Positions 4,533-39,612 of a stretch of 64,000 nt of DNA are shown one piece after another. The DNA comes from Kiloniella majae. Its GTDB lineage: Bacteria; Pseudomonadota; Alphaproteobacteria; Kiloniellales; Kiloniellaceae. The notes beneath the pieces were generated by a model. It saw nothing but the letters and a program-made list of their open reading frames with translations. It was not told where the DNA came from and ran no database searches. A program made the translations under genes and the position numbers. The stretch is taken from contig NZ_MTSZ01000005.1 in the NCBI RefSeq assembly GCF_002118315.1, forward strand, positions 1 through 64,000. The letters are read 5' to 3'. Position 1 is the first letter of the stretch, and every line of letters starts with the position of its first letter.

Positions 4533-4647
4533 AGTGGCCCCCATAATTTATGTGAAAAACCACTTTACCTTCTCCCCTATAAGACGCAATGCCCGAGAAG
4601 ATCATCGCACAAAAATAACTTCGCCCCAGCTCAGGAATGCAGACGTT

Positions 4648-5880
4648 TTAAACCGAAGATGAAACTGAGGACTGTTCTGGTTCCAGAAAAAGAATTGTAA
4701 AGGTTGCAATAACAAGCATCCCTGTTGATGCCAGTAAACAAGCCTCAAGTCCGGCATACTGAAAGATCAGCCCGGAAAGCAGCGTTCCGACAAGACGACC
4801 TATCGCATTGGCCATGTAATAAAATCCAACATTCAGCGCAACTTTGTCTGAATCAGAACAGGCAACAATCAGATAAGAATGCAGAGAAGAATTAACGGCA
4901 AAGACAAAGCCGAAAACGAGCAAGCCAACCAGAAGAAAAGCGCCAGAAAAAGATAAATCCCGCCACAGGACGGCAGCAATCACGGCAGGTAACAGAGCTA
5001 ACACAGCCCCCCAGAACCGCGCAGCCACGATCCCGGAACGAGGGTCTTTTACTTTTTTGGTAAGTTTTGGCACCAGCGCCTGAACAATACCATAGCCAAT
5101 GACCCAAAGTGCCATGAAGGCCCCGACTTCATCAAACGACCAGCCAAGAGTAGAATAGAGGAAAACTGGCAATCCAACCACAAACCACACGTCTCTCGCT
5201 GCAAAGAGGAAAATTCTCGCAAAGGACAAAATATTTATGGCCCTGGACTTTGAAAAGAGCTCCTTGGTACGGATTTTCTGTTTTGCCTTTCCCAGGTCAA
5301 CCTTAACCACCAGCGACGTAGCCCCGAGAACAATGACTAACCCCAAAGCCATTAAAAGTAGAGAATTTTCAAACCCGACCCATTCCAATAAAACGCCACC
5401 AAGTAAAAAGCCAAGACCTTTGAGAGCGTTTTTAGAGCCAGTTAAAATAGCGACCCATCGGAACAAAGTCCCTTTGTCTTCCCCATCATCTTTCGCCACA
5501 AGTTTAACAGCAGATTTAGAGCTCATCTTCGTCAGATCTTTGGCGACACCTGACAAAGCCTGTGCCCCCATGACATAGATAATCGAAAAGTCGATCGACC
5601 AATCGGCGCATAATTGAGAGAGTAATCCCAGAGCCACAATTTGGGTGATCAGACCTAAAAATAGCGTCAGCCGAAGGCCAAACCGCGCCGCAATCCAGCC
5701 CCCAACAAAGTTGGTTACAATCCCCATCGCCTCGTAAAGCAAAAACAGATAAGCCAAATCAAGTGGAGTAAACCCAAGACGATGGAAGTGCAGTAACACC
5801 AGCATGCGCAGGGCACCATCTGTCAGGGTAAACCCCCAATAGGCAGCTGTTACAGCACCATAACTCCGTAAATCAGACAT
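4648..5880 (-). CDS. arsJ: ArsJ, organoarsenical (1-arseno-3-phosphoglycerate) efflux MFS permease
   Basis: A 410-residue, about 12-helix major facilitator protein. The N-terminal pattern YWGFTLTDGALRMLVLLHFH and the segment ALSGVAKDLTKMSSKSAVKL are what I remember of ArsJ. In the known system a dedicated GAPDH converts glyceraldehyde 3-phosphate plus arsenate to 1-arseno-3-phosphoglycerate, which ArsJ exports; the product then breaks down outside to arsenate. The gene lies 69 bp downstream of the GAPDH gene on the same strand, exactly the expected pair, so the two together confer arsenate resistance. No arsR, arsC or acr3 is in the window. Function is inferred from family plus context. Confidence 0.9.
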   Translation of the reverse strand: MSDLRSYGAVTAAYWGFTLTDGALRMLVLLHFHRLGFTPLDLAYLFLLYEAMGIVTNFVGGWIAARFGLRLTLFLGLITQIVALGLLSQLCADWSIDFSIIYVMGAQALSGVAKDLTKMSSKSAVKLVAKDDGEDKGTLFRWVAILTGSKNALKGLGFLLGGVLLEWVGFENSLLLMALGLVIVLGATSLVVKVDLGKAKQKIRTKELFSKSRAINILSFARIFLFAARDVWFVVGLPVFLYSTLGWSFDEVGAFMALWVIGYGIVQALVPKLTKKVKDPRSGIVAARFWGAVLALLPAVIAAVLWRDLSFSGAFLLVGLLVFGFVFAVNSSLHSYLIVACSDSDKVALNVGFYYMANAIGRLVGTLLSGLIFQYAGLEACLLASTGMLVIATFTILFLEPEQSSVSSSV

Positions 5881-22969: not shown

Positions 22970-23335
22970 ATGGGGTTAAAAGTTTTAACAGTAGATGATT
23001 CAAAAACGATGCGGGACATGGTCTCCTTCACACTCAAAGGTGCAGGACATAATGTCATTGAAGCCGCAGACGGTTGTGAAGCCCTTCGTGTTCTTGGCGG
23101 TGACCGTGTTGATCTGGTCATAACCGATGTAAACATGCCGAACATGGATGGCCTGACACTTTGCAAAGAAATACGATCTAACCCAACACACAGGCTGACA
23201 CCGATTTTGGTCCTGACAACAGAATCAGATGGTAACAAGAAAAACGAAGGCCGAAGTGTCGGCGCAACAGGCTGGATTGTGAAGCCATTTAACCCAGAGA
23301 AGTTGCTCCAGGTAGTCAATAAGGTTTGCCCATAA
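22970..23335 (+). CDS. cheY: CheY-like chemotaxis response regulator
   Basis: A 121-residue single receiver domain. The acidic pair is VDDSKTMR (Asp9, Asp10), the phosphorylated aspartate is Asp53 in ITDVNMPNMDG, the conserved Thr is in VLTTESDGNK and the Lys in WIVKPFNPEKL. No output domain, so it should act by binding the flagellar switch or by serving as a phosphate sink. Located between the STAS gene (6-bp gap) and cheA (117-bp gap), it is the direct target of that kinase. The DNMPNMDGLTL and KKNEGR regions resemble alphaproteobacterial CheY proteins. Confidence 0.93.
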   Translation: MGLKVLTVDDSKTMRDMVSFTLKGAGHNVIEAADGCEALRVLGGDRVDLVITDVNMPNMDGLTLCKEIRSNPTHRLTPILVLTTESDGNKKNEGRSVGATGWIVKPFNPEKLLQVVNKVCP

Positions 23336-23452: not shown

Positions 23453-25723
23453 GTGAGTACCAATGATTTTGACCTTGATCAGTTCAAAGCAACTTATTTC
23501 GAAGAATGCGCTGAACTGCTTATAGATGCAGAAACAAGACTTGCTGACCTACAACACAGCCCTGAAAATGTTGACGCAGAGGATCTGAATGCGATCTTTC
23601 GTGTTGTTCATTCTGTAAAGGGCGGTGCTGGAGCTTTTAGCTTCGATCAACTCGTTGGTTTTGCGCACATATACGAAGCCCTTCTTGATAGAATGCGCCA
23701 AGGTGAAATCCAGATAACCGAAGATATCGTAACGCTTTTGCTTTCAGCCAATGATATTTTGACAAATCTCATCCAAGCGGCACAAAACGATATTACGGTA
23801 CCCGAAGAAGATTTTATTGATGTCAAAAACAAGCTGAACCTTCTCGCGTTTGATCAACCTGTTAACTCTTCAACTGAAGAAGGAGAGACAGAAACAACAA
23901 TATCCGAGGAGAAAAGCACAAAAAAATATATCATTTCGTTTAATCCCAAGCCCGAACTTTTACAACATGCAAACGAACCTCTTCTCCTTGTCCGAGAGAT
24001 GAAAGCCCTTGGGGAATTGACAACCATAGTTAACACTGATCGCTTACCCTCCATTCAAAAAATCATCTCAGATGAGGCATATTTTTCATGGGTTTTCGAA
24101 CTGGTTTCTGATTGCAGCCTTACAGACGTCGAAGAAGTGTTTGAATTTGTCACAGAAGATTGTGATCTGGACATAAAAATAGAAGACGAAACACAAAAGC
24201 CGGAAGACGTTTCATCTCAACCAACCTCAGCGCCCCCAATAGAAGACAACTCGACAAAAACACTGGAAACGACGAAGAAACAAGCTGTTGAAGCAATGCA
24301 GGCGCCAACAATTCCAACGCCAGCAACAGTAGGAAAACCAACTCCGACAGGTAATAGCCAAGCTTCTCAACGCGTATCTTCCATCCGGGTGGAGCTGGAT
24401 AGAGTGGACCGTCTGGTCAACATGGTTGGCGAACTCGTCATTACACAAGCAATGTTACGTCAACAGGTTGACAACCTGCCACCAGAGCTAGCCGCCTTCA
24501 TGGCCAAGGGCTTTGAAGATTTAGGGATGCACACAAGGGAAATCCAGGAATCTGTTATGGCTGTTCGTATGCAGCCCGTGAAGTCCGTCTTCGCGCGTAT
24601 CCCAAGATTAGTCCGAGAACTCGCTTCCAAACTAGGTAAAAAAGTCGAACTGGAAACGTCCGGGGAACATACCGAAGTTGATAAAACAGTTATTGAGCAG
24701 CTCTCTGATCCTTTAACCCATATGATCAGAAACTCTTTGGACCATGGGATTGAAGAAACGCCGGAAGACCGCAAAAAAGCAGGAAAACCAGAACTTGCGA
24801 CTGTCACGCTATCCGCTGAACATCGATCCGGACGAATTCATATTATTGTGACCGACGATGGCCGTGGTATCAACCGCGAACGGGTTAGGGCCAAGGCGAT
24901 AGAAAAGGGGATCATCAATGTTGATGAGAACCTTTCTGATGAGGCTATTGATGACCTTATATTCAGTCCCGGATTTTCAACCGCAGAAGAAGTAACCGAC
25001 GTTTCTGGCAGAGGTGTTGGTATGGATGTCGTGCGCCGAAACATCAGTAACCTCGGTGGACGTATCTCCGTACAGTCTACGCCAGGGAAAGGCACCAAAT
25101 TCATCATGTCTCTTCCCCTCACCCTTGCGGTATTGGACGGTATGGTCGTCGCTATCGGGAAAGAGAAGTTCATTATTTCGCTCACCGCAATCATTGAAAG
25201 TCTGCGTCCTGCCAAGACAGAGCTCCACAACCTTTCAAATGGAGCAGAGGTTGTCTCTTTACGCGGTGAATATATACGCCTGGTCAGGCTACACCGACTA
25301 TTCAACATTCCCGGCGCGCAAAAAGATCCAAGTCAGGCACTAGTCGTTGTTGTTGAAATAGAAGGCGGGAAACAAGTTGGCATTTTGGTCGATGAACTGC
25401 TGGGCCAACAACAAGTTGTTATCAAAAGCCTGGAAGAAAACTACGACCCTGTTGACGGAATATCAGCCGCAACAATCCTTGGAAACGGCATGGTTGCTCT
25501 CATTCTAGATGTGGACGGTCTGGATGCTATGGCAAGACAAGCAAGTCACAAGCAAAACACTGATGATGAGATAGATAATCAACCCGACTTATTAACCACA
25601 GATACCGACGAAGAAAAATCAACAACAACAAATCAACTGGCGAATTCTCGACCTGAAGATCAAGAGGCACTTACCAACAAAGCCACTGAAGAGAAAACGC
25701 AAAGATACGAAGTAATGGAGTAA
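23453..25723 (+). CDS. cheA: Chemotaxis histidine kinase CheA
   Basis: A 756-residue soluble kinase. The HPt domain has His53 in VVHSVKGGAGAF; a variable P2-like region (about 170-300) ends in a Pro/Thr-rich linker. The dimerisation helices start near 306 (SSIRVELDRVDRLVNMVGEL). The ATPase domain shows the N-box DPLTHMIRNSLDHGIE (about 419-434), G1 TDDGRGI and G2 SGRGVGMDVV. A CheW-like domain (about 560-690) closes the protein, followed by an acidic Gln/Thr-rich tail. The start is GTG at 23453 after a GGGGG ribosome site. Autophosphorylates at His53 under receptor control and passes phosphate to CheY and CheB. Confidence 0.95.
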   Translation: MSTNDFDLDQFKATYFEECAELLIDAETRLADLQHSPENVDAEDLNAIFRVVHSVKGGAGAFSFDQLVGFAHIYEALLDRMRQGEIQITEDIVTLLLSANDILTNLIQAAQNDITVPEEDFIDVKNKLNLLAFDQPVNSSTEEGETETTISEEKSTKKYIISFNPKPELLQHANEPLLLVREMKALGELTTIVNTDRLPSIQKIISDEAYFSWVFELVSDCSLTDVEEVFEFVTEDCDLDIKIEDETQKPEDVSSQPTSAPPIEDNSTKTLETTKKQAVEAMQAPTIPTPATVGKPTPTGNSQASQRVSSIRVELDRVDRLVNMVGELVITQAMLRQQVDNLPPELAAFMAKGFEDLGMHTREIQESVMAVRMQPVKSVFARIPRLVRELASKLGKKVELETSGEHTEVDKTVIEQLSDPLTHMIRNSLDHGIEETPEDRKKAGKPELATVTLSAEHRSGRIHIIVTDDGRGINRERVRAKAIEKGIINVDENLSDEAIDDLIFSPGFSTAEEVTDVSGRGVGMDVVRRNISNLGGRISVQSTPGKGTKFIMSLPLTLAVLDGMVVAIGKEKFIISLTAIIESLRPAKTELHNLSNGAEVVSLRGEYIRLVRLHRLFNIPGAQKDPSQALVVVVEIEGGKQVGILVDELLGQQQVVIKSLEENYDPVDGISAATILGNGMVALILDVDGLDAMARQASHKQNTDDEIDNQPDLLTTDTDEEKSTTTNQLANSRPEDQEALTNKATEEKTQRYEVME

Positions 25724-25729
25724 ACGCTG

Positions 25730-26308
25730 ATGGAAAGTAATAGCCTCGTAGCACAGGAAAACATGGGCGTACCTGCACAGGACGGGCAAAACTCACATAA
25801 CCAAAGCATGGATGGAACCAACACCACCGCAGTTGAAAATGCCGGACAGCAACAGTTCATCACCTTTACAGTGGGTGATCAGGAATACGGCGTAGATATT
25901 ATGTCCGTGCGCGAAATTAAGGGGTGGGTTGAAACAACTCTTTTACCCAATACACCTGAATATATGCGCGGTGTCCTAAACCTTCGCGGTGTTATCGTTC
26001 CGATATTTGACCTTCGATGCCGCTTTGGACTTGGTAAAACAGACGCCACAAATCTGCATGTCATTGTCATCATCGCCGTTAAAAACCGGATGGTTGGTAT
26101 TCTGGTAGATACCGTTTCAGACATTCTCACCGTATCAAATTCTGACATCCGGGACGTCCCCAAAATGGAAACCCTGATCGAAGAAGAATATCTGTCCGGT
26201 CTGGTTACGATCGAAGATCGAATGGTCGCCCTTCTCAATCAGGAACGTCTCTTCGACACCAAGGTGATCGAAAACGGAATTGCTATAGGCAAAATAGACG
26301 AGACATAA
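25730..26308 (+). CDS. cheW: Chemotaxis coupling protein CheW
   Basis: A 192-residue coupling protein: a polar Gln/Asn-rich N-terminal extension of about 40 residues, then a CheW domain (about 42-185). Family landmarks are FITFTVGDQEYGVDIMSVREIKGW, NLRGVIVPIFDLRCRFG and VGILVDTVSDIL. It links the receptors to CheA in the membrane-proximal array. It follows cheA by 6 bp. The N-terminal extension is longer than in enteric CheW. Confidence 0.95.
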   Translation: MESNSLVAQENMGVPAQDGQNSHNQSMDGTNTTAVENAGQQQFITFTVGDQEYGVDIMSVREIKGWVETTLLPNTPEYMRGVLNLRGVIVPIFDLRCRFGLGKTDATNLHVIVIIAVKNRMVGILVDTVSDILTVSNSDIRDVPKMETLIEEEYLSGLVTIEDRMVALLNQERLFDTKVIENGIAIGKIDET

Positions 26309-26534: not shown

Positions 26535-29500
26535 ATGGTTACCTTTTTAAACAACTTACCAGTGAAGTTTAAATTTGGGATAGCACTACTAGCACCTGTG
26601 CTTGGCCTGCTGTTTTACTCCACCTACACTTTACTGGAAAAAAATACGACCGTGCAATCCATGGAAAAGATTCTATATATCGCAGAATCTACACCGGATT
26701 TAGGGGCCTATATCCACAATTTACAGACAGAACGCGGAACATCTGCAAGCTATATCGGCTCTAACGGATCCAATACAATCAAGTCTCAACTTGAAGAAAG
26801 TCACCGGCTTACCAACGCATCACAAGAAACTCTGGACACGCAGCTCGCAAATCTCTTTGCACATTCCAGTACTGAACGCTTTACAAACAAGCTCAAAAAT
26901 GTGCAATCGGCCCTGCGCGATCTCGAAAAATATCGCTCCGCTGTCATAGACTTAAAATTATCAGCAGAGGAAATGGCCGCCTACTATTCCAGCACCATCA
27001 CCAGCATAATTGAACTCATCGCCGAAATGCCACACCAAAGCAAAGATGGCGGTATATCAAATGAAATTACAGCCTTAATTGCTTTGCTCCAGGCAAAAGA
27101 ATATGCGGGGGTAGAGCGTGCAATAGGGACTGCTGGCTTTGCTTTGGGATCCTTTGACACCAGTAAATACAAACAAATCTCAAGCTTGATCAGTAAACAA
27201 CAGAGCTATTTCTGGATTTATCAGCATTATGCGTCTGCGAAACAGGTTTCCCAGTTTAGTGACCTGCTATCAAGCCCAGTAATGACAAAGCTTTCAGAAA
27301 TGCGTGATGTTATTGCAAACTATCCTGATACCTTAGATCTCAAAGGTATCAGCGGACAGGATTTCTTTGAGACAACATCTTCGCGCATAAACGCCCTAAG
27401 AGACATCGAAATTAAAGCCGAGCAATCACTTATCGAAGATATCACGCACGTACGAGATGATGCCTACAATATTGAGCTTACATTTTTAATAAGCACAATC
27501 TTATTACTGATCATCGCAATCGGCCTCGGCAGTTTGATTGTCATAGGCCTTAGCAGATCACTCTCTCAACTTGTTACGATGGTTATTGATAAAAATGCGG
27601 ATGTCGAAATAAATCCTGAACGCACAGATGAAATTGGTATTTTGGGCAATGCTTTACTCGCCTTCACCAAAGAAGCAGAAATAAGCGCCCAGATAGCAAC
27701 CGAGAATTTGCGTATCAAGTCTGCGCTGGATAATTGTCAGGCGAATGTGATGGTTGCGGATGTTGACCTGAACATCATCTATATGAACGACACCATGGTC
27801 GAGATGATGCGCGTGGCTGAAAGCGACATCAAAAAAGATCTGCCAAATCTGGATACCGATAAACTGCTCGGTACCAATATTGACACTTTCCACAAATCAC
27901 CTGCCCATCAGCGGAGCCTGCTCGCGAGCCTTAAAGAACCCTATAGTGCAACTATCGAAGTTGGCGGCAGAACCTTTAACCTCATAGCTTCCCCCATTAA
28001 CGATGAAAATGAGGAGCGTTTGGGTACTGTAGTCGAATGGGATGACGTAACTGTCCAGCTTGCTGAACAGCAGGAAGCAGATCGCATCGCCCAGGAAAAT
28101 GCCCGCGTCAAAGTTGCCCTTGATAGCTGCACAGCCAATGTCATGGTTGCCAATAATGACTTTGACATCATCTATATGAACGAGGCTGTCCTCAATATGA
28201 TGCGCGAAGGGGAAGCCGATATCCGCAAGGATTTGACCGGCTTTGACAGTAACAAACTTCTGGGTGGCAGTATTGACCGCTTCCATAAAAACCCCGCCCA
28301 TCAGCGCACCATGCTCGAAGCCCTAACCACCACATACCAAGGTCGGATTAATGTGGGGGGGAGAACCTTTGATCTCATTGCCAATCCAATTACCAATGAC
28401 CAAGGAGAACGCCTGGGAACCGTGGTCGAGTGGGCCGACGTAACTTCAGAACTTGCCATTGAGGCCGAGGTTGATCAGATGGTTCAGGCCATCTCTACAG
28501 GGGACTTCACAAAATCACTGGCGGCCGAAGGTAAAGAAGGCTTTATGCTGGCCCTGACCAACGCCCTCAACTCCCTCAACAAGAATGTCAGCGATGTGGT
28601 TGATGACGTGGCAACAGCCTTGTCATCCCTCTCACGCGGGGATCTTACCCACGAAATCACCACCGATTACACTGGCATGTATGAAACCCTCAAACAGGAT
28701 GTGAACCAGACATCAAAACGACTGTCTGAAACTGTCGGGGAAATCATCACCACCACCGATGAAATAGGCTCTGCTTCTACGGAAATATCCTCTGGTTCCA
28801 TGGATCTGTCCCAAAGAACAGAGGCACAGGCATCCAGTCTGCAACAAACCGCGGCCTCTATGGAGGAAATGTCCACCACAGTGAAACAGAATGCGGACAG
28901 TGCTCAACAGGCAAACCAGATGGCCTTGAACGCAACAGAGACTGCCGAACGGGGCGGAGAAGTTGTACAGGAAGCTGTTGTTGCTGTGACAGGTATTGAG
29001 CAGGCATCACAGAAGGTGTCCGATATTATCGGGGTCATAGATGAAATCGCTTTCCAGACCAATCTTTTGGCCCTCAATGCTGCGGTTGAAGCGGCAAGGG
29101 CTGGAGAAGCAGGCAAAGGCTTTGCTGTGGTTGCTGCCGAAGTACGAACACTGGCACAGCGTTCAGGTGAAGCAGCCAAAGATATCAAAACCCTGATCAT
29201 GGAAGCCAACGATCAGGTCAAGGAAGGCGTTACACTGGTTCGCTCAACCGGTGACACCTTGTCCGAAATTGTTGATTCATCCAAACGCGTTGCTGACATC
29301 ATTTCCGAGATTGCTGCCTCTAGTCGGGAACAGGCATCAGGCGTTGAGGAAATCAATGCGGCGGTCACAGCAATGGATGAGATGACCCAGCAGAATGCAG
29401 CGCTGGTGGAAGAAAGCTCTGCTGCGGCCCGCACCCTGGAAGAACAGGCTGAAGGACTATCCGAAATGATCGGGTTCTTCAAAACCAACGACACAGGACG

Positions 29501-29654
29501 CGCCAGTCGTCCCCAAAGACCAAAGGAAGTCAAACAGGCTTCGCCGACGACAACGCCAAAGCCTCAGACATCACCAAAGAAGGTTACAGCGTTAAAACCC
29601 ACAACCGCGACAGCCGTTGCCATCGAAGATGATGACGACTGGTCTGAATTTTAA
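26535..29654 (+). CDS. Large chemoreceptor with NIT sensor, HAMP, two PAS domains and CheR-docking tail
   Basis: A 1,039-residue methyl-accepting protein. Order: TM1 (about 13-32); periplasmic helical NIT domain with the motif [12 protein letters not shown] (62-73), the family linked to nitrate/nitrite sensing; TM2 (about 314-337); HAMP; PAS1 (about 393-515) and PAS2 (about 524-640), clearly repeats of each other (each has NVMVA...DxNIIYMN and FHKxPAHQR); two HAMP-like helical repeats (about 645-735); and an MCP signalling domain (about 740-990) with the hairpin tip [21 protein letters not shown] split by one residue. The C-terminus DWSEF fits the xWxxF docking site for CheR/CheB. From the first PAS onward it is almost the same as the next receptor. 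Confidence 0.92.
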
Positions 29655-29694
29655 ACCCAGTATTTTGACCCCGGAATTCTAAAACAAGGAAATT
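27711..29694 (+). repeat. Copy 1 of a 1,984-bp direct repeat (receptor cytoplasmic half)
   Basis: Bases 27711-29694 match 31090-33073 without a gap at an offset of 3,379 bp. The repeat begins in the first PAS codons and runs 40 bp past the stop codon. Differences are scattered and mostly synonymous in the PAS part; by reading, 28851-29560 is base-for-base identical to its partner. The match stops abruptly at both ends. Confidence 0.9.
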
Positions 29695-29763
29695 AAGTAA
29701 GAGAACAAAGGGCAAAAAACACCTCTTTACTTAAGAGAACTCGCTGTAAAACGGAGACACAAA

Positions 29764-32700
29764 ATGCACAGAATATTTAGCAAGCTATCGTTAAAGATTG
29801 CACACAAACTGCCCATCTTGTTTGTTCTGATAGCAATGATCTCTGTGATATCAGTTGGTGCCTTTAGCATAAACAGCACATCTGACACTCTTGTTGTGCA
29901 AAAGAAGCAAACACTGCGGGCTCTCGCGGAAGCGCGTAACTCCGCGTTAAATCAGTATCTTGAATCGATAAGAGAAGATATTGTTATCACGGCAGCGAAC
30001 AGTAATATTCAGGACGCCCTGTCCGGCTTTACAGACGGCTTTATCGCTGAAAAACGCCTGAACAGTGATCCGGTACAGTCCCTTCAAAGTGTTTACATCA
30101 ACGAACAAGGCCTCACATCAACAAGCTCTTTTGGTAATAAGGAAGCATTGGGCCAGAAACATCTTTTTAATGGTCCCTCACTTGTTGAAGGCACTTATCA
30201 TACACAGCACCAGCGCTTCCACCCTTGGTTTCGCCAAATGCTCGAAGGACGCGATTATTACGATATATTCCTGATCGATCCAGAAGGTAATGTTGTTTAC
30301 ACTGTTTTCAAAGAGCTTGATTATGCAACAAACCTGCTTGATGGAAAGTATAATCAAACAGGCCTAGCTCAAGCTTTCAAGGCAACATTATCAAGCAAAA
30401 AAGAAGGCAATATAAGCTTCATCGATTTTGCCCCCTATGCACCAAGTAACGGTGCACCAGCTAGTTTTATCGCAACACCGGTCATTTCCAGAACAGGTTT
30501 TCAAGGCGTTCTGGTTTTCCAGATGCCAATTAATCGGATCAACCAAGTCCTGCAATTAAGCGCAGGTATGGGGAAAACCGGCGAAACCTATCTCGTCGGC
30601 AGTGACTATCTTATGAGAAGCGATTCACGTTTCTCAGAAGAATCAACAATTCTGAAAACAGAAGTAAAAACAGACACTGTACTAAAGGCTTTGGAAGGGG
30701 AAAGCGGCATTGAAATCACACCGGATTATCGTGGCATTCCCGTTCTTTCTGCTTACCAGCCCTTTGAATTTCAAGATACGCGCTGGGCTTTGATCGCCGA
30801 AATTGATGAACAGGAAATGCTGGCTCCTGCACGGGAGGAAAGACTTTTTATATTGATGATTAGCGCCATCGTGCTGGTTGTCGTCGCTCTGTTAGGATGG
30901 GTATTTGCCCGCTCTATTGTGCGCCCCTTGCAAAGATCTACAGCAGAAATGCTACGGCTTGCAAAAGGTGATAAATCTTTCGAAATCTCAGGATTAAACC
31001 GCCGTGATGAAATCGGAGACATCGCATCGACATTACAGACATTTAAAGACAATGCGACTAAGCAAGATCAGATGGTTTCTGAAAATCTTCGTATCAAGTC
31101 TGCGCTGGATAATTGTCAGGCGAATGTGATGGTTGCGGATGTTGACCTGAACATCATCTATATGAACGACACCATGGTCGAAATGATGCGCGTGGCTGAA
31201 AGCGACATAAAAAGAGATCTGCCAAACCTCGATACCGATAAACTACTCGGTACCAACATCGACACATTTCACAAATCACCTGCCCATCAACGCGGCCTAC
31301 TCACAAACCTCAAAGAACCCTATAGCGCAACTATCGAAGTTGGCGGCAGAACCTTTAACCTCATCGCTTCTCCCATTAACGATGAAAATGAGGAGCGTTT
31401 GGGTACTGTAGTTGAGTGGGATGACGTAACGGTCCAGCTTGCTGAACAGCAGGAAGCGGATCGCATCGCCCAGGAAAATGCCCGTGTCAAAGTCGCCCTC
31501 GATAGCTGCACAGCCAATGTCATGGTTGCCAACAATGACTTTGACATCATCTACATGAACGAGGCTGTTCTCAATATGATGCGCGAAGGAGAAGCCGATA
31601 TCCGCAAGGACCTGACCGGCTTTGACAGTAACAAACTTCTCGGCGGCAGTATTGACCGCTTCCATAAAAATCCCACCCATCAACGCACCATGCTCGAAGC
31701 TCTGACCACTACATATCAAGGTCGGATTAATGTGGGGGGCAGAGCCTTTGATCTCATTGCCAATCCAATTACCAATGATCAAGGAGAACGCCTGGGAACC
31801 GTGGTCGAGTGGGCGGACGTAACTTCAGAACTTGCTATTGAGGCCGAGGTTGATCAGATGGTTCAGGCCATCTCTACAGGGGACTTCACAAAATCACTGT
31901 CCGCAGAAGGTAAAGTAGGTTTTATGCTGGCCCTGACCAACGCCCTCAACTCCCTCAACAAGAATGTCAGCGATGTGGTTGATGACGTGGCAACAGCCTT
32001 GTCATCCCTCTCACGCGGGGATCTTACCCATGAAATCACCACCGATTACACTGGCATGTATGAAACCCTAAAACAGGATGTGAACCAGACATCAAAACGA
32101 CTGTCTGAAACTGTCGGGGAAATCATCACCACCACCGATGAAATCGGAGCGGCCTCTACGGAAATATCCTCTGGCTCTATGGATCTGTCCCAAAGAACAG
32201 AGGCACAGGCATCCAGCTTGCAACAAACAGCGGCCTCTATGGAGGAAATGTCCACCACAGTGAAACAGAATGCGGACAGTGCTCAACAGGCAAACCAGAT
32301 GGCCTTGAACGCAACAGAGACTGCCGAACGGGGCGGAGAAGTTGTACAGGAAGCTGTTGTTGCTGTGACAGGTATTGAGCAGGCATCACAGAAGGTGTCC
32401 GATATTATCGGGGTCATAGATGAAATCGCTTTCCAGACCAATCTTTTGGCCCTCAATGCTGCGGTTGAAGCGGCAAGGGCTGGAGAAGCAGGCAAAGGCT
32501 TTGCTGTGGTTGCTGCCGAAGTACGAACACTGGCACAGCGTTCAGGTGAAGCAGCCAAAGATATCAAAACCCTGATCATGGAAGCCAACGATCAGGTCAA
32601 GGAAGGCGTTACACTGGTTCGCTCAACCGGTGACACCTTGTCCGAAATTGTTGATTCATCCAAACGCGTTGCTGACATCATTTCCGAGATTGCTGCCTCT

Positions 32701-33033
32701 AGTCGGGAACAGGCATCAGGCGTTGAGGAAATCAATGCGGCGGTCACAGCAATGGATGAGATGACCCAGCAGAATGCAGCGCTGGTGGAAGAAAGCTCTG
32801 CTGCGGCCCGCACCCTGGAAGAACAGGCTGAAGGACTATCCGAAATGATCGGGTTCTTCAAAACCAACGACACAGGACGCGCCAGTCGTCCCCAAAGACC
32901 AAAGGAAGTCAAACAGGCTTCGCCGACGACAACGCCAAAACCTCAGACATCACCAAAAAGGGTCACAGCATTGAAACCCACAACCGCGACAGCCGTTGCC
33001 ATCGAAGATGATGACGACTGGTCTGAATTCTAA
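29764..33033 (+). CDS. Large chemoreceptor with Cache sensor, HAMP, two PAS domains and CheR-docking tail
   Basis: A 1,089-residue receptor. TM1 about 16-36; a periplasmic double-Cache-like region about 40-355 (landmarks [41 protein letters not shown] and [16 protein letters not shown]); TM2 about 361-383; HAMP about 384-436; PAS1 from 443, PAS2 from about 574; HAMP-like repeats; MCP signalling domain; and the same C-terminal DWSEF docking motif. Cache domains usually bind small metabolites such as amino acids or carboxylates. The cytoplasmic half is shared with the upstream receptor, so both should feed one CheA/CheW array with different periplasmic inputs and the same internal PAS input. 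Confidence 0.92.
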
Positions 33034-33118: not shown

Positions 33119-34030
33119 ATGACATCCTCAGCACTCGCGTCATCAGAAACAAAAAAATCTGTTTCCTCTCACCCTGGGGCAACGGGCGAGGACCAAGAGC
33201 GCGAGTTTCCATTTTCTGATCAACAGTTCAAAGCCTTGACAAAAATGGTCTATGACAGAACTGGTATCGTTCTGAAAGATAATAAGAAAAACATGGTTTA
33301 CGGACGTCTTGCCAGACGATTGCGCAAGCTAAAAATGTATTCTTTTAAAGAATATTTGAGCTATCTCGACAGTCCCGATGGTACTAGCGAAACAGGCATG
33401 TTGATAAATGCAATAACAACAAACCTGACAAAATTCTTTAGAGAGTCACATCATTTCAAACACCTTTTCACTGCTTGCGAAGAAATCGTCGAAGCACAAA
33501 CAGCCCGGGGTGAAAACCGCCGATTACGCCTTTGGTCAGCGGGATGCTCATCTGGCGAAGAACCTTATTCCATCGCAATTATCATGAGCGAACTTTTAAA
33601 GAGAACACCATCCATAGATATAAAAATCCTGGCCACAGATCTTGATACTGGCATGCTACAAACTGGTATGTCCGGGATCTATAACAAAAAATCTGCCGAA
33701 GCTATGCCAGACAAATTCAAGAAAAAATATACACAAGAGATATCTGAAACCCAGATTAAAATGAGTTCAGAGTTACGGAACCTGATCACCTTCAAGCAGC
33801 TCAATTTACTGGAACAATGGCCAATGAAGGGGCCTTTCGACATTATTTTTTGCCGAAATGTCATGATCTACTTTGACCAGCCAACAAAGGTATCTCTTGG
33901 TAAACGCTATGCCGAATTACTCCGGCCAGATAGCTGGCTTTACATTGGCCACTCAGAAAGCTTGCCGGATGAAACCAATCTCAAACTCATCGGGAAAACC
34001 ATTTACCAGCGTCAGGATCGGAGAGGGTAA
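33119..34030 (+). CDS. cheR: Chemotaxis protein methyltransferase CheR
   Basis: A 303-residue S-adenosylmethionine-dependent glutamate methyltransferase. An N-terminal helical domain (about 30-100; FKALTKMVYDRTGIVLKD) precedes the methyltransferase domain with SAM motif LRLWSAGCSSGEEPYSIAI, the ILATDLDTGML acidic loop and FDIIFCRNVMIYFD. The Ser/Thr-rich first 30 residues are family-variable. CheR methylates receptor glutamates for adaptation and should dock on the DWSEF tails of both large receptors encoded upstream. The CheD gene follows directly (ATG 2 nt after the CheR stop). Confidence 0.95.
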   Translation: MTSSALASSETKKSVSSHPGATGEDQEREFPFSDQQFKALTKMVYDRTGIVLKDNKKNMVYGRLARRLRKLKMYSFKEYLSYLDSPDGTSETGMLINAITTNLTKFFRESHHFKHLFTACEEIVEAQTARGENRRLRLWSAGCSSGEEPYSIAIIMSELLKRTPSIDIKILATDLDTGMLQTGMSGIYNKKSAEAMPDKFKKKYTQEISETQIKMSSELRNLITFKQLNLLEQWPMKGPFDIIFCRNVMIYFDQPTKVSLGKRYAELLRPDSWLYIGHSESLPDETNLKLIGKTIYQRQDRRG

Positions 34031-34031
34031 A

Positions 34032-34709
34032 ATGTTACATATGACAGACATAAACAAAGCGTCCCCGTCCCAAAAAGTACCTGATCATTTTTATTCCGAT
34101 GACACGGACCTGCGTCATCCACACGAAGGAGAACCCAAAAGGTTTTTTGACCCCAAGTTCAAACATTATGCCGTAAAAATAATGCCTGGGACACATTACG
34201 TAACTTCCAGACACGATGAAATGCTGGTTACCACACTGGGATCATGTGTCAGCGCCTGTATCCGCGATACAGCACTCGGTGTCGGCGGAATGAATCATTT
34301 CATGCTGCCAGAAAGCGACACGGGTAAGTGGGGCGGCAGTAGCGCAGCAATGCGGTATGGCAACCATGCCATGGAAACTTTGCTGAACGATATACTGGCT
34401 ATGGGCGGCGCAAAAAATCGGATGGAAATCAAGCTCTTTGGCGGTGGACACGTTCTGAATTCATCCAATCTTGTTGGTGAGAAAAACGTACAGTTTGTCG
34501 AACGTTATCTAAAAAACGAACACCTGGCTCCCTCATCACAACATTTAGGTGGAACCCAGGCACGGAAGATTATTTTTTTCCCAAAAACCGGTGTCGTAAA
34601 GATGAAGCTCCTGCCCCATGCATTTGATGAAGAAGTGGTGATGAGCGAGAGAAAGCTTAGCACCAACCTTAATCATCAAGAGATTGAAGGTAGCGTTGAA
34701 CTCTTTTGA
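34032..34709 (+). CDS. cheD: Chemoreceptor glutamine deamidase CheD
   Basis: A 225-residue CheD. The start at 34032 lies right after the cheR stop with GAGAGGG just before; longer frames would run inside cheR. The thiol-protease-like active site is intact: Cys in TTLGSCVSACI and His in GGMNHFMLPES; a Thr follows in the RKIIFFPKTGVVKMKLLP strand. CheD deamidates receptor glutamines and can bind CheC/CheY-type partners. An N-terminal extension of about 50 residues and a C-terminal tail ending EGSVELF are extra to the core; the last residues resemble the end of the CheZ-like protein two genes on. Confidence 0.93.
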   Translation: MLHMTDINKASPSQKVPDHFYSDDTDLRHPHEGEPKRFFDPKFKHYAVKIMPGTHYVTSRHDEMLVTTLGSCVSACIRDTALGVGGMNHFMLPESDTGKWGGSSAAMRYGNHAMETLLNDILAMGGAKNRMEIKLFGGGHVLNSSNLVGEKNVQFVERYLKNEHLAPSSQHLGGTQARKIIFFPKTGVVKMKLLPHAFDEEVVMSERKLSTNLNHQEIEGSVELF

Positions 34710-34722
34710 ATAGGAATTTATT

Positions 34723-35790
34723 TTGACCCCAGTAAAAGTTCTTGTTGTTGATGATTCAGCTCTTATGCGAGAGCTTCTGACAGCCCTTCTATCCCAAGAT
34801 CCGACAATTGAAGTTGTTGGATCGGCGACGGATCCATATCAAGCGCGTCAGATGATCAAGCAGCTATTACCTGATGTCATTACCCTTGATATCGAAATGC
34901 CCAGAATGGATGGCTTATCATTCCTCGAAAAGATAATGACACTAAGACCCATGCCCGTGGTTATGGTGTCTTCCTTGACACAACAAGGGGCAGAAGCAAC
35001 GCTCAATGCTCTTGAGCTGGGTGCCGTAGATTTCTTTCCAAAACCTAAGCTGGATATGAAGCGTGGCATTGAACAGCGCGCCGATGAGCTTATTCACAAG
35101 GTCAAGACTGCAGCACTGGCAAAGGTAAAAACGCTTGAGCGTGAACCAGAGGCACAACTCGCCTTAAATCCTCTTTCAAACATCAAGTTTTCAACGACTG
35201 AAAAAGTTATTGTCATCGGTGCCTCAACCGGTGGTGTCGAAGCTTTACGTGTCGTTATTAAAAATTTGCCCGCCAATAGTCCTGCTGTACTTGTAACACA
35301 ACACATGCCCGAGAAATTTACAAAAACATTTGCCGAACGCCTCAATAAAATTTCTGCCGTTTCCGTCAGCGAGGCAAAACACGGGGAAAGAGTCCTCCCT
35401 GGACACGTCTATATTGCCCCAGGTGGAAAACACCTGAAGTTACACCGATCAGGTGCAAACTATCTCTGTCAATTGACTGACGAAGAGGCTGTATCCGGCC
35501 ACAAACCATCAGTCGATGTCTTGTTCCGCTCTACCTGCGAAGCCGCCGGAAAGAATGCTATAGGCGTTATCCTAACTGGCATGGGGAAAGATGGCGCTGC
35601 TGGCATGTTGGAACTACAAAAAGTCGGGGCGAAAACCTTCGGTCAAGATGAGGCTTCGTGCGTTGTCTATGGAATGCCCAAAGCAGCATATGAAATTGGA
35701 GCCATTGAGCATCAAGTTCCCTTGAAGAAAATGGCCGAAGTAATGTTGAGTGCTTGTGGTGCCGCGAAGGACCGGCATATCCGCGTCTAA
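34723..35790 (+). CDS. cheB: Chemotaxis methylesterase/deamidase CheB
   Basis: A 355-residue CheB. The receiver (1-120) has Asp10/Asp11 and phospho-acceptor Asp56 in ITLDIEMPRMDG. The esterase domain carries the catalytic Ser in GASTGGVEAL, His in TQHMPEKFT and Asp in GMGKDGAAGML. Translation starts at a TTG (34723) preceded by TAGGAA. CheA phosphorylates the receiver, which opens the esterase so that it removes receptor methyl groups, balancing CheR. It follows cheD by 13 bp. Confidence 0.95.
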   Translation: MTPVKVLVVDDSALMRELLTALLSQDPTIEVVGSATDPYQARQMIKQLLPDVITLDIEMPRMDGLSFLEKIMTLRPMPVVMVSSLTQQGAEATLNALELGAVDFFPKPKLDMKRGIEQRADELIHKVKTAALAKVKTLEREPEAQLALNPLSNIKFSTTEKVIVIGASTGGVEALRVVIKNLPANSPAVLVTQHMPEKFTKTFAERLNKISAVSVSEAKHGERVLPGHVYIAPGGKHLKLHRSGANYLCQLTDEEAVSGHKPSVDVLFRSTCEAAGKNAIGVILTGMGKDGAAGMLELQKVGAKTFGQDEASCVVYGMPKAAYEIGAIEHQVPLKKMAEVMLSACGAAKDRHIRV

Positions 35791-35851: not shown

Positions 35852-37060
35852 ATGGCTATGGTTGCACAACCCGAAATTTACGCTCCTACCGAGGACGCCG
35901 CCGCGAATAAAACAGAGGATACTTCAGAACAGGACACGCCATCTGTTCAGGACGACACCACTGATCATAGCCTGCCCGTCATTCCCGGAAGCCCGCCGAT
36001 TGGCAGTAATAAAGGCATGCATGACTTACTGACTTTATGGGTCGGCCTATCTGACGTACAGAAAAGAACCTTTAAAGCACTAACAAAAGAGGTCGAAGTC
36101 GCAGGCCAACTCGTTGAGACTTCAACTGAAGAGCTCTCAAAAAACTTTCAGGAACTTGCTAATTTCTCTCGCAAACAGGCCGAAGATCTTAAATCAATTA
36201 TAGAATCAGCCAGCACAGTAACTGTCGATGATAAAGAAATTACCCTAACGGACATCTTACACGTTATGGAAGGGTCTATTAACACCGTAGTTGAGCAGAT
36301 ATTACACGTATCCAAACACGGGATGTCCATGGCTTATGCGATGGAAGATCTCTTGGGTAATGTCGAAAAAGTACAAGCAAGAGTGACTGATATTGAAACC
36401 GTCACCAAACAGACAAATCTGCTGGCCCTTAACGCGAAGATTGAAGCCATGCGGGCTGGCGAAGCTGGCGCCGGGTTTTCAGTTGTTGCTGATGGCGTGC
36501 GAGAACTTTCAAGTTCCATTAACGATCTTTCAGGCCAGATCAGGCAAGAGATTTCTGATGTGTCCAGATCTTTAGCAGACAGTCAGGGAAACCTGAAAGA
36601 AGTTACCTCTGTCGACATGACAGAAAATATCATGGCCAAGGAACGTATCGAAAAAATCATGACCTGCCTCATCAATCGTAACGATTCCTTTAGTAAAACT
36701 ATAGAACACTCAGCAAGTAACTCGGACAATATGACTCGCCAGGTATCTGAAATGATCACAGGTATTCAATTCCAGGATAGAACCAGTCAACGTCTTGGCA
36801 ATATTCTCGACGCCTTGAAAGTATTGTCCGAAGCCGGGGAGGAAATGAAAGCCAAAACGGAAGAACAGGTAGGTGAACAGATAACACCTGAACTTGATAG
36901 GGAATGGCTTAATCAGCTGATCAACGGCTTCCATCTCGGCGAAATGCGCGAGCGTTTTATCATGCACGCTCTCTATGATGACGATATCTCTGTTGATGAC
37001 GAACCAGCCGACGCTCAAAGCCAAGTGGAAGATGACGAAGATGATATAGAACTGTTTTAA
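35852..37060 (+). CDS. Soluble receptor-like protein with CheZ-like phosphatase motif
   Basis: A 402-residue protein with no membrane segment. The start at 35852 follows AAGGAG; an upstream frame overlapping cheB is rejected. Order: acidic Pro/Thr-rich tail (1-55); a helical stretch (about 60-180); a chemoreceptor hairpin ([20 protein letters not shown] at 186-205, then GAGFSVVADGVRELS); a second helical stretch with GIQFQDRTSQRL (304-315); and a very acidic end, DDEDDIELF. The DxxxQ pair (Asp309, Gln313) matches the catalytic Asp143/Gln147 spacing of CheZ (FQDLTGQ), and the acidic tail ending ELF resembles the CheY-binding peptide of alphaproteobacterial CheZ. No other cheZ lies in this operon. 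Likely a CheY-P phosphatase built on a receptor-like bundle; it could instead be a plain soluble receptor. Confidence 0.75.
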   Translation: MAMVAQPEIYAPTEDAAANKTEDTSEQDTPSVQDDTTDHSLPVIPGSPPIGSNKGMHDLLTLWVGLSDVQKRTFKALTKEVEVAGQLVETSTEELSKNFQELANFSRKQAEDLKSIIESASTVTVDDKEITLTDILHVMEGSINTVVEQILHVSKHGMSMAYAMEDLLGNVEKVQARVTDIETVTKQTNLLALNAKIEAMRAGEAGAGFSVVADGVRELSSSINDLSGQIRQEISDVSRSLADSQGNLKEVTSVDMTENIMAKERIEKIMTCLINRNDSFSKTIEHSASNSDNMTRQVSEMITGIQFQDRTSQRLGNILDALKVLSEAGEEMKAKTEEQVGEQITPELDREWLNQLINGFHLGEMRERFIMHALYDDDISVDDEPADAQSQVEDDEDDIELF

Positions 37061-37103: not shown

Positions 37104-37412
37104 ATGGACTACTCGTTTAAGCCAGACGGAACCGTACTGAAATGTGTTATGACAGGTGAATTCACCTTCACGGATCATCCCACATTTCGCAACATGATCG
37201 ACGATGCAGTAAAAACAGGCACCCGCTCAATACAGCTAGATTTGCAAGATGTAGAATATATTGATTCAGCAGGTTTGGGTATGTTTCTGGTCGCTAATGA
37301 AAGGGCTGGCGAAGAGGGTTGGAAATTTTCAATAAGCAACCCAAGGGAAAAGGTTCAAAAAATGTTCACGCTGGCAAAGCTGGAAACCATTGTAACGATT
37401 ACAAATGCATAA
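37104..37412 (+). CDS. RsbV-like STAS anti-sigma-factor-antagonist protein
   Basis: A 102-residue STAS protein with a canonical phosphorylation loop, VEYIDSAGLGMFLVANE, in which the serine of DSAGL (about residue 58) is the predicted kinase target. The layout matches SpoIIAA/RsbV. It precedes the PP2C phosphatase gene by 62 bp, and an RsbW-like kinase gene stands just beyond on the other strand. The unphosphorylated form would bind the kinase and free its target. Confidence 0.88.
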   Translation: MDYSFKPDGTVLKCVMTGEFTFTDHPTFRNMIDDAVKTGTRSIQLDLQDVEYIDSAGLGMFLVANERAGEEGWKFSISNPREKVQKMFTLAKLETIVTITNA

Positions 37413-37474
37413 GAGACCGCACCGAAATAAGCCAGACAATAAACTCACCCTAAACAGATATTAGTCCAAGCTGA

Positions 37475-38665
37475 ATGCCCAATAGCTCAAACGACATTGC
37501 TTTTGACGTCATCGCAAATCGACAAATTCTGGTTGTCGATGATGTCAAACTATTGCGTGATCTTATTACTAGTATTTTACGTCAGGCCGGGTTCACCAAT
37601 ATTGAACACGCAGAAAATGGTCAGGAAGCCATGCTCAAGGTTACGGCCAACCCTCCGGATATTATTATTCTCGATCTCATGATGCCAATTATGGATGGTA
37701 TGGAGGTATGCCGTCTGGTTCGAGAAATTGAGGACACCGCAGCCATTCCCATTATCGTTCAAACAGCCATGCACGATAATGAAGAACGTTTGAAAGCCTT
37801 TGCTGCAGGGGCTAGTGATTTGGTCACAAAACCTGTCAACGCACTCGAACTTGTGATCAGGACAAAGCTGCACCTCAAGAATCTTATTTTAACCGAAAAT
37901 CGAGAAAAATACCGAGCCCGAGTGGCCGACGAACTGGCGACAGCAAAAGACGTACAACAAAACATTTTACCATCCCCACAAAATCTACGGGAAATACGTG
38001 CACAAACGGGCCTCAATATTTCCTCTGTTTGCCAGCCTTCATCAGAACTTGGGGGTGATTTTTGGGGGGCTAACGTTCTAGAAAATAGTTCCATCGGCTT
38101 CTATGTCACTGACTTCTCAGGACACGGTGTTGTCTCAGCCCTGAATACCATTCGATTACACACACTTCTTTTCAATGTGGGTGAAGCATGGCAAAAGCCC
38201 GATCAGCTACTCTCCGATATTAATCAAAACCTTTGTGACATGCTGCCCACCGGACAGTACGCAACCATGATTATCGGATTGATCTCACCAGAAGATAACA
38301 CGTTAAGCTACGCAGGTGCTGCTGCGCCTCCCCCAATTTATGGTATTTGGGAAAAACCCGAAGAATTTACCTACCTTGATACAACAGGATTACCCCTTGG
38401 CGTGAGCAAAGTCGCAACTTACGACTTGCAAACGGTTCCCTTTACAGAAAACCATTTTCTCTTTTCCTTTAGTGACGCTTTGATCGAAACCAAGTTGAAT
38501 GATGGTACGTTTTTGGAAGGAGAAGAATTAATAAATCTTGTGAAAAATCTTACCAGAAGCAAAGCAAACTCTCAGCTATTGGATCAACTGATTGCTTCTT
38601 TTTTTGAAAATGGTGGCAATGACTTAAGAGATGATTTGACGGCTATTTGCTTTGACTATTTATAA
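37475..38665 (+). CDS. Receiver-PP2C (SpoIIE/RsbU-type) serine phosphatase
   Basis: A 396-residue response regulator. The N-terminal receiver (about 15-135) has Asp22/Asp23, phospho-acceptor Asp67 in ILDLMMPIMDG, and Lys in LVTKPVNALEL. A helical linker (about 140-175; EKYRARVADELATAKDVQQNILP split into DELATAKDVQQNILP) leads into the PP2C/SpoIIE domain with metal-binding motifs SSELGGDFWG, VTDFSGHGVVSAL and RDDLTAICF. It should dephosphorylate an RsbV-type STAS protein when its receiver is phosphorylated, plausibly by CheA. Last gene of the plus-strand chemotaxis operon. Confidence 0.92.
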   Translation: MPNSSNDIAFDVIANRQILVVDDVKLLRDLITSILRQAGFTNIEHAENGQEAMLKVTANPPDIIILDLMMPIMDGMEVCRLVREIEDTAAIPIIVQTAMHDNEERLKAFAAGASDLVTKPVNALELVIRTKLHLKNLILTENREKYRARVADELATAKDVQQNILPSPQNLREIRAQTGLNISSVCQPSSELGGDFWGANVLENSSIGFYVTDFSGHGVVSALNTIRLHTLLFNVGEAWQKPDQLLSDINQNLCDMLPTGQYATMIIGLISPEDNTLSYAGAAAPPPIYGIWEKPEEFTYLDTTGLPLGVSKVATYDLQTVPFTENHFLFSFSDALIETKLNDGTFLEGEELINLVKNLTRSKANSQLLDQLIASFFENGGNDLRDDLTAICFDYL

Positions 38666-38712
38666 CGTTACTGACTTAAGATATTTGGTTTTCAATAGAG
38701 GATTTTCCCAAG

Positions 38713-39612
38713 TTAGAGAGCAATCCTAGCCGTAACCCTGTTACCTTTGTCATTATAATTGAGTTCCGTAAAAGCCATCATTTTTGCAAGCGCAATCCCT
38801 CTGCCATGATTTGAACGGATCCTTTCGTCATCGATCGTCAGGTATTTTTTCCAGTTAAATCCTTTGCCCTCATCTTCAATGACAAAGACGATTTCATTCT
38901 CGTTTCGTGTATAACTGACCTTTACGACCCTTTTGTTATAAGGTTCCATCTTGAGACGATTTTGAATTTCATCATAAAGACGGCTGGTTTCAAGTAATTC
39001 TGTTTTTAAATTATAGCCAATCTCAAGATTTCCATGCTCAACGGCATTGTGCAATAACTCGTTCAAGCCAATCACAATGCCATCAGCCCCCGGACAAGCT
39101 AAACTCAACATCGTTGTTAAATTGCGAGCCTGATCCACCGTTTTGAATTCAAATGTTCCCGATGTAATCAAACCAATTGCCGAACTGCGGGTTTCTATTT
39201 CAGTCAACAAGCTTCGCACGTGATTAAATTGATTAATTGCCGCACAGGTTACAGAATATAAAATATCTGTATCACAGGGCTTTTTAATTGTGTGAAACCA
39301 GTTGTGAACAACTAATTCCAAAGGTGATTTACGGCTATCAATCTCGGTCATCACAACCGCAGGAATTTGTTGTGGTAACTTTTTAGACGCTCCCATCACA
39401 AGTGATGATTCGGACAAGAGGTGACGATCATAATCATCCGATATCAGAATTAAACCGACAGGATCTTTTTTCAAACTGTTGTCCAAAAGAATAGTGTCGG
39501 GCTCTAAAGAACAGACGACATCATAATTTTTTTCGATCAAAAAATTTAAAATCTCATTCCGGGCAAGCTCATCCGGCTCTATCAAGAGTATGCGCGGCTC
39601 TTTAGAATTCAT
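38713..39612 (-). CDS. Receiver-like protein with RsbW-type serine kinase domain
   Basis: A 299-residue protein. Residues 1-130 look like a receiver fold (RILLIEPDELARNEILNFLIEKN in two pieces; a strand GLILISDDYD at the phosphorylation site) but lack the usual clear Asp-Asp pocket. The C-terminal half is an RsbW/SpoIIAB-type GHKL ATPase: N-box GLNELLHNAVEHGNLEIGYN, G1 VIEDEGKGFNW, G2 NHGRGIALAKMMA. RsbW proteins phosphorylate RsbV-type STAS proteins and sequester a sigma factor or other partner. The gene is convergent with the PP2C phosphatase gene (47 bp between stops), so phosphatase, STAS substrate and kinase are all present. No sigma factor is nearby. Confidence 0.82.
   Translation of the reverse strand: MNSKEPRILLIEPDELARNEILNFLIEKNYDVVCSLEPDTILLDNSLKKDPVGLILISDDYDRHLLSESSLVMGASKKLPQQIPAVVMTEIDSRKSPLELVVHNWFHTIKKPCDTDILYSVTCAAINQFNHVRSLLTEIETRSSAIGLITSGTFEFKTVDQARNLTTMLSLACPGADGIVIGLNELLHNAVEHGNLEIGYNLKTELLETSRLYDEIQNRLKMEPYNKRVVKVSYTRNENEIVFVIEDEGKGFNWKKYLTIDDERIRSNHGRGIALAKMMAFTELNYNDKGNRVTARIAL

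Follow-up and report, generated by a model that had tools for sequence, protein, structure and literature searches.

A McpA-like gene in an F7-type chemosensory cluster of Kiloniella majae codes for a putative CheZ/CheT-type CheY-P phosphatase with an inserted chemoreceptor hairpin

How does a chemosensory system with its own CheY and no recognisable CheZ switch off its signal? The question is raised by a chemotaxis gene cluster in a 64,000-nucleotide stretch of Kiloniella majae DNA (contig NZ_MTSZ01000005.1, positions 1 to 64,000; from here on, the window). An initial annotation of this stretch had singled out a 402-residue protein, encoded behind cheB, as a soluble receptor-fold protein that could act as a CheY-P phosphatase. 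We examined this protein, its relatives, and their gene context computationally.

The cluster runs in the order cheY, cheA, cheW, two receptors, cheR, cheD, cheB, McpA-like gene, STAS, and receiver-SpoIIE phosphatase (Table 1), and a HATPase_c_2 gene adjoins it on the opposite strand. By gene order alone, the gene for the 402-residue protein is the "mcpA-like chemoreceptor" of an F7-type stage-1 cluster. For such clusters, passages of Ortega et al. 2020 (PMC7184735) give the order STAS, cheY, cheA, two cheW, aer2-like, cheR, cheD, cheB, mcpA-like, STAS, and serine phosphatase. The cluster in the window shares the run cheR-cheD-cheB-mcpA-like-STAS-serine phosphatase with this order, but contains one cheW instead of two, two receptors instead of one aer2-like gene, and no STAS gene that we could see before cheY. 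Around relatives outside the class of K. majae, we found 12 clusters in the order X (McpA-like), cheY, (STAS), cheA, receptor, cheW, cheR, cheD, cheB or near it, which corresponds to stage 2 of F7. The two receptors of the window carry different sensor domains (NIT and dCache), and their PAS-HAMP-signaling halves are near-identical by eye; together with the shared C-terminus, this likeness suggests a recent duplication or conversion. Beside the chemosensory cluster, the STAS, receiver-SpoIIE, and HATPase_c_2 genes (window 37104-39612) suggest that the system has a partner-switching (anti-sigma) output.

Stage-1 and stage-2 F7 clusters are described in the same passages as containing cheY and lacking cheZ, with classical cheZ genes usually present elsewhere in the genome (PMC7184735). 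The contig of the window yielded no PF04344 (CheZ) match at E 1, in agreement with the earlier remark that the operon has no recognisable cheZ. CheZ was also not recognised in 62 loci searched by blastp with three CheZ queries, many of which are partial clusters, nor on either strand of 12 longer clusters. Within the 62 loci, cheY directly follows the McpA-like gene in 18, and STAS is its nearest downstream gene in 28. Elsewhere in the K. majae genome there are three PF04344 CheZ ORFs (L001, L002, and L003), one adjoining a cheY-like ORF. The initial annotation had named a separate classical CheZ, jointly with inactivity of the 402-residue protein, as grounds against its proposal; the CheZ part of this pair is a fact, and the three classical CheZ proteins may act on other CheY proteins of the genome.

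Table 1. Genes of the chemosensory cluster in the window and features of the McpA-like protein
Feature	Position	Strand	Basis
cheY; presumed substrate when phosphorylated	22970-23335	+	PF00072
cheA	23453-25723	+	Pfam
cheW	25730-26308	+	Pfam
Two large receptors, each with C-terminus DDDDWSEF	26535-33033 (26535-29654, 29764-33033)	+	Pfam
cheR	33119-34030	+	Pfam
cheD, C-terminus EGSVELF (ORF; true start later)	33873-34709	+	ORF
cheB	34723-35790	+	–
McpA-like gene, 402 aa	35852-37060	+	ORF, ATG start, Shine-Dalgarno AAGGAG upstream; PF00015; between cheB and STAS
Base helix 1, residues 53-121	36008-36214	+	AlphaFold2 model; retained in hairpin-less orthologues
Short beta hairpin, residues 122-131, where the receptor insert joins	36215-36244	+	AlphaFold2 model; junction of the hairpin-less L031/L022 orthologue near here
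Receptor (MCP) hairpin, residues 132-251, tip ~189-206	36245-36604	+	PF00015, AlphaFold2 model; missing in L031/L022, L033, L034, largely in L038
Base helix 2, residues 257-340, bears DxxxQ	36620-36871	+	AlphaFold2 model; CheZ and CheT-type proteins matched by profile
QFQDRTSQ, residues 306-313; D309/Q313 as CheZ-type catalytic pair (by motif)	36767-36790	+	D/Q invariant in 56/56 aligned rows, exposed helix side by periodicity
Conserved WL..L...LGEMRERF segment, residues 350-375	36899-36976	+	Alignment, AlphaFold2 model; counterpart in CheT-type proteins LsdlkxRL
C-terminal tail DDEDDIELF, residues 394-402	37031-37057	+	Sequence; tail type common to CheD and CheT-type proteins
STAS (anti-sigma antagonist type)	37104-37412	+	Pfam
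Receiver-SpoIIE serine phosphatase	37475-38665	+	–

Passages of PMC7184735 treat McpA-like receptors as receptors of unclear role with a conserved C-terminus that is "important yet unclear". The Kiloniella protein resembles Pseudomonas aeruginosa McpA/CttP (PA0180) and Vibrio cholerae VCA1088, as far as their published descriptions go, in gene position, receptor hairpin, a conserved C-terminus that is not a pentapeptide, and a cluster without cheZ. In passages of PMC7534058, VCA1088 is classed as 24H and P. aeruginosa McpA/CttP is presented as a trichloroethylene receptor for positive chemotaxis. In a literature search that covered mostly papers outside subscription journals, we found no paper ascribing a CheZ-type motif to McpA-like receptors and no activity data for any McpA-like protein.

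The Kiloniella protein itself matches PF00015 (MCPsignal) over residues 160-306 (E 8.7e-21) and no other Pfam domain above cut-off. The stretch GIQFQDRTSQRL, which contains D309 and Q313, lies just past the end of this match. The receptor hairpin, the D309/Q313 pair in FQDRTSQ, and the C-terminus DDEDDIELF, which had prompted the phosphatase proposal, are all present in the ORF. In the AlphaFold2 model (mean pLDDT 77) the two base helices flank the short beta hairpin and the receptor hairpin, while a hairpin-less orthologue is modeled as a single long helical hairpin (mean pLDDT 75); both monomer models are long helical hairpins. A membrane region is predicted for those McpA-like receptors that have been studied, whereas we saw none in the Kiloniella protein by inspection, and its residues 1-52 look hydrophilic; an Aeromonas relative (L025) has hydrophobic stretches at its N-terminus. 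The named near relatives belong to Kiloniella species. A plasmid search returned mainly receptors below 60-80% identity, and a phage search matched 44 records.

In E. coli CheZ, D143 and Q147 act on CheY-P: the aspartate positions CheY-P and the glutamine orients the attacking water. We compared the DxxxQ motif of the McpA-like protein with the corresponding region of ordinary receptors. A search of the K. majae genome found 34 other receptor places. In 29 of them we obtained an ORF whose tip could be recognised, and [FLMYV]QDxxxQ occurs in none of these 29. A DxxxQ does occur in one of these ORFs (L185) at the offset of the McpA-like motif (+120 from the tip), but it is unrelated and stands in another context. 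In an alignment of 56 relatives, from which plasmid rows L024 and L025 were omitted, D309 and Q313 are invariant, as are Q306, Q308, F402, and the tip residues N194, E198, A199, G206, and F209. Since many of these loci had been fetched with the pattern QFQDR[TA][SK]Q, cheB synteny provides a fairer test of conservation. Among 30 cheB loci including that of the window, 17 have an McpA-like gene directly after cheB, and the D and Q are kept in 17 of 17, with VQD in place of FQD in two. A profile that itself contains the motif matched a further set of 26 relatives, all with D and Q and four with altered neighbours (L102, L104, L105, and L109). Helical periodicity places D309 and Q313 at 110 and 162 degrees off the hydrophobic face, and positions 311 and 312 vary in the 56-row alignment. 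Invariance, periodicity, and these variable neighbours together indicate that an exposed D/Q pair is conserved.

Based on the cheB-synteny conservation, the absence from 29 receptors, and the invariance in the alignment, we reject a chance motif. We did find one counter-example, a receptor-type protein without the Q (FQDAIKD, L205 1102-2415) that ends in DTDIELF. In the same locus, cheB is followed on the minus strand (4457-5005) by the gene for a DxxxQ protein of 182 aa (VDRRRQ) that lacks the hairpin and ends in EDVLF, so that a split into a receptor form and a small DxxxQ protein is possible in this genome.

The C-terminal module of the protein (C-module) is related to CheZ. A profile built from 92 family members, in which motif and tail were required, was run against the 9115 ORFs of the collected loci and matched 32 of 32 CheZ proteins (14.7-36 bits, E 3.7e-9 to 0.015). 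Next in rank to the family members and their variants are CheZ, hairpin-less proteins encoded in che clusters, and proteins of the CheT type. Ordinary receptors, defined here by a recognised tip and no QDxxxQ, all rank below the 32 CheZ proteins; fragments cut at locus ends appear from E 0.15 and whole tip-bearing receptors from E 5.4. By hhalign, the C-module aligns with CheZ at 90% (87% with roles exchanged) with DxxxQ in register, but with receptor C-helices at 5% (1% with roles exchanged), and CheZ with receptor C-helices at 1%. Both profile and hhalign place D309 and Q313 in register with the catalytic pair of the CheZ C-helix. A relation to CheZ in this part of the protein had been anticipated from the sequence and is borne out by these comparisons, although the Pfam cut-off for CheZ is not reached: the 402-residue protein has no PF04344 match at E 0.1, and the hairpin-less orthologue L031 scores 12.9 bits against a gathering cut-off of 30.7. 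With scores below this cut-off, we do not assign the protein to the formal CheZ family (PF04344).

Several controls address how far this likeness reaches. No column shuffle that kept the motif attained the real hhalign score (0 of 40; maximum 1.8%, for CheZ). CheZ sequences shuffled outside the motif scored a median of 2.7 bits against 22.95 for the real ones, a value reached by 0.1% of the shuffles. Receptor helices with a grafted CheZ motif, taken at the best of 13 registers, scored higher (median 16.7, maximum 23.4 bits), a level exceeded by 13 of the 32 CheZ proteins and not by the other 19. When the nine motif residues were deleted from model and targets, CheZ matches became weak (best E 0.002, then 0.045 and 0.07), and a receptor (L041, 0.0075) and a receptor-region ORF (L186, 0.012) reached the same range. 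Shuffles, grafts, and motif deletion together show that the likeness to CheZ extends past the motif, though modestly. In the Protein Data Bank, a profile search with the C-module alone listed E. coli CheZ (1kmi) at E 2.9, which is not significant, and full-length profiles found receptors and coiled coils and no CheZ. Foldseek and VIA-align searches with the hairpin-less model returned generic coiled coils and receptors, with CheZ not listed, which says little for such shapes.

The McpA-like protein shares with CheZ the FQDxTxQR motif in register and similarity of the flanking helix, but differs by its receptor insert and by a tail that lacks the SQDDIDALF form. With ordinary cytoplasmic chemoreceptors (PF00015) it shares the hairpin and its tip, but its C-helix past the hairpin does not match theirs. 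Given the 0 of 29 receptor ORFs, the C-module ranking, and hhalign values of 1-5%, we reject the reading of FQDRTSQ as part of a generic receptor helix, the outcome that the initial annotation had named as contrary to its proposal.

Other small or rearranged proteins surfaced in these searches. A 593-aa protein encoded after cheB (L204 1226-3007) carries LQAGDLTRQRLE mid-chain and the tail GDVDFF and is perhaps a rearranged family member. A 182-aa protein (L113 1249-1797) with MQFQDMTSQ and the tail GDVELF lies between ORFs that appear motB-like and cheY-like by inspection, stays below the cut-offs of Pfam and NCBIfam, and is a possible unannotated CheY phosphatase candidate. Between cheY and cheD of another locus, a 195-aa ORF that runs antiparallel to the che genes (L199 minus strand, 3803-4390 of the reverse complement) contains LQSADRLTQ and the tail EDVTFF; with its weak C-module profile match (E 0.3), it may be another hairpin-less member.

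An experimentally studied protein enters the comparison through clusters of the type cheB-cheY-cheD, in which a small DxxxQ protein is encoded directly after cheD. This position fits the description of CheT in Agrobacterium fabrum in passages of a review (PMC12654446); here, the name CheT-type refers to position, size, and motif only. According to these passages, CheT of Sinorhizobium meliloti contains DXXXQ, has a CheZ-like predicted structure, acts as a phosphatase towards one of two CheY-P, and binds CheR. The CheT-type gene was found in 32 of 151 genomes of one family; a first query, specific to one lineage, had matched 3 of 289 and 2 of 60 genomes and no plasmid. Two loci with cheD (L240 and L162) showed no C-module match at first look, and the CheT-type gene of the L240 genome was found later (L268). 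Among 30 loci that we read, the first gene recognised upstream is cheD in 28; all 30 proteins contain QxxDxxxQ, and the protein ends in GD[LIVF][ED][LF]F in 20 and in [ED][LF]F plus up to four further residues in 27. By hhalign, the CheT-type set aligns with the McpA-like C-module at 91%, with DxxxQ, LsdlkxRL against LgEmRxRf, and the tails in register; none of 40 motif-keeping column shuffles came near (maximum 0.12%). The same set gave 0.1% against CheZ and 0.05% against receptors. Through this set the McpA-like protein is likened to CheT of S. meliloti and A. fabrum in DxxxQ, an LxxLKxRL-like segment, and a GDLELF-like tail. The differences are that CheT-type genes follow cheD, lack the receptor hairpin, and code for QxxDxxxQ, while the McpA-like gene follows cheB, includes the hairpin, and codes for FQDRxxQ.

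The receptor hairpin is repeatedly absent from orthologues. The gene after cheB codes for a protein wholly or largely without it in four cases: a Kiloniella relative (L022/L031), a Methylocystaceae MAG (L033), Terasakiella pusilla (L034), and Curvivirga aplysinae (L038). In these proteins the N-terminal helix is kept, as are the sequence FQDRTSQRL, the segment L.E.(R/K)ER, and the tail. The helix boundaries of the AlphaFold2 model around the inserts explain where these proteins are cut. On a CheB tree of 37 loci, three changes of hairpin state are needed, and well supported branches force all three; since L031 and L038 branch from within groups of relatives that have the hairpin, at least these two are losses. 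Because several lineages do without it, the receptor hairpin appears dispensable. The proposal of a CheZ-like module on a receptor-type coiled coil survives in part: the DxxxQ module shows a relation to CheZ and CheT-type proteins and none to the usual C-helix of receptors, and it is kept where the hairpin is missing. That the phosphatase would sit inside the array, as had also been suggested, is doubtful, both from hairpin-less forms without a receptor tip and from passages of PMC7184735 stating that F7 arrays do not require McpA-like receptors.

The tail invites a different interpretation from the one first given to it. All 84 motif-bearing ORFs end in Leu/Phe/Met-Phe, and the McpA-like C-terminus DIELF is conserved but is not of the tether form x-[HFYW]-x2-[HFYW]. 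The tails of McpA-like proteins and CheZ align by hhalign, and the initial annotation had taken DDEDDIELF for a CheZ-like CheY-docking end. However, the same end is found at most three residues from the C-terminus in 35 of 39 CheD-matching ORFs of the named loci. In 27 of the 30 CheT-type loci, after dropping L259 and L270 (without cheD) and L265 (without tail), the penultimate tail residue co-varies between CheD and the CheT-type protein (LL 14, FL 4, FF 8, FA 1); Fisher's test over 26 loci, with the FA pair omitted, gives p 0.0003, uncorrected for relatedness. Outside the class of K. majae, one cluster pairs SITFFDD in CheD with SISFF, and the other CheD proteins found there have no such tail. 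Being common to CheD and CheT-type proteins, the tail probably marks a shared partner rather than CheY docking as such. CheD ends of the type [IV]ELF/EFF that resemble those of the McpA-like or CheT-type neighbour, in the window and in L242-L271, together with the co-variation, make a common docking partner likely.

We estimate a probability of roughly two in three that the 402-residue protein is, as its sequence suggests, a CheZ/CheT-type CheY-P phosphatase with a chemoreceptor hairpin inserted. In such an enzyme, the two base helices would dimerise into a CheZ-like four-helix bundle, and CheY-P of the same cluster would dock on the side of this bundle. D309 would position CheY-P and Q313 would enter the active site to orient the attacking water, like D143 and Q147 in E. 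coli CheZ. By way of the inserted hairpin, CheA/CheW or other receptors may retain the enzyme or control its activity, and the tail DDIELF would dock the cluster partner also bound by CheD and CheT, which may be CheR, CheB, or CheY.

Part of this evidence would also suit a protein without enzymatic activity, whose patch of Q306, D309, R310, and Q313 and whose tail dock CheR, CheB, or STAS in an adaptation scaffold; its likeness to CheZ would then stem from shared ancestry with changed function. The tail shared with CheD, its co-varying penultimate residue, and the frequent STAS gene downstream (28 of 62 loci) are in line with such a role, as is the complex of CheT with CheR reported in passages of PMC12654446. 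According to the same passages, CheT remains an active phosphatase in that complex, and in the text of PMC7184735 the tail of P. aeruginosa McpA is described as binding none of four CheR proteins. Combined with catalytic positions that hold D and Q invariantly next to variable positions 311 and 312, these reports lead us to regard a mere adaptor as unlikely.

We think it very improbable that the protein binds CheY-P through its CheZ-like face and tail without catalysis and so acts as a buffer between F7 and flagellar signaling. Clustering of McpA with the F6 array is reported for P. aeruginosa (passages of PMC7184735 and PMC7534058), and the other CheZ proteins of the genome could provide catalysis, but binding alone would not need Q313 to be invariant in 56 of 56 rows or Q to be present in 30 of 30 CheT-type proteins. 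Lowest of all we place an ordinary soluble chemoreceptor in which FQDRTSQ is a mere part of its helix. The full PF00015 hairpin with its conserved tip residues and the description of P. aeruginosa McpA as a receptor (PMC7534058, in part) are what one would expect of such a protein; against it stand the three separate lineages that lack the hairpin and retain the C-module, the better match of the C-module to CheZ than to any receptor helix seen, and the dispensability of McpA for F7 arrays cited above.

The reading as a phosphatase brings together two published open points, namely, the role of McpA-like receptors and the way in which an F7 system that has its own CheY and no CheZ ends its signal; it would account for the shut-off of the messenger in a chemosensory system that is widespread and has no CheZ of its own. 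Tentatively, and with somewhat less than even confidence, we extend it to the family: McpA-like "receptors" throughout Pseudomonadota might be the missing CheY-P phosphatases of F7, each a single chain that combines a receptor, an anchor in the array, and an enzyme that ends the signal, with CheT as the receptor-less remainder and CheZ as a more distant relative. If true, the family would share one origin and have a function anchored in experiment. Enzyme and receptor tip would then lie on one coiled coil, the receptor part of which is missing in several lineages, and one conformational signal could set both kinase and phosphatase.
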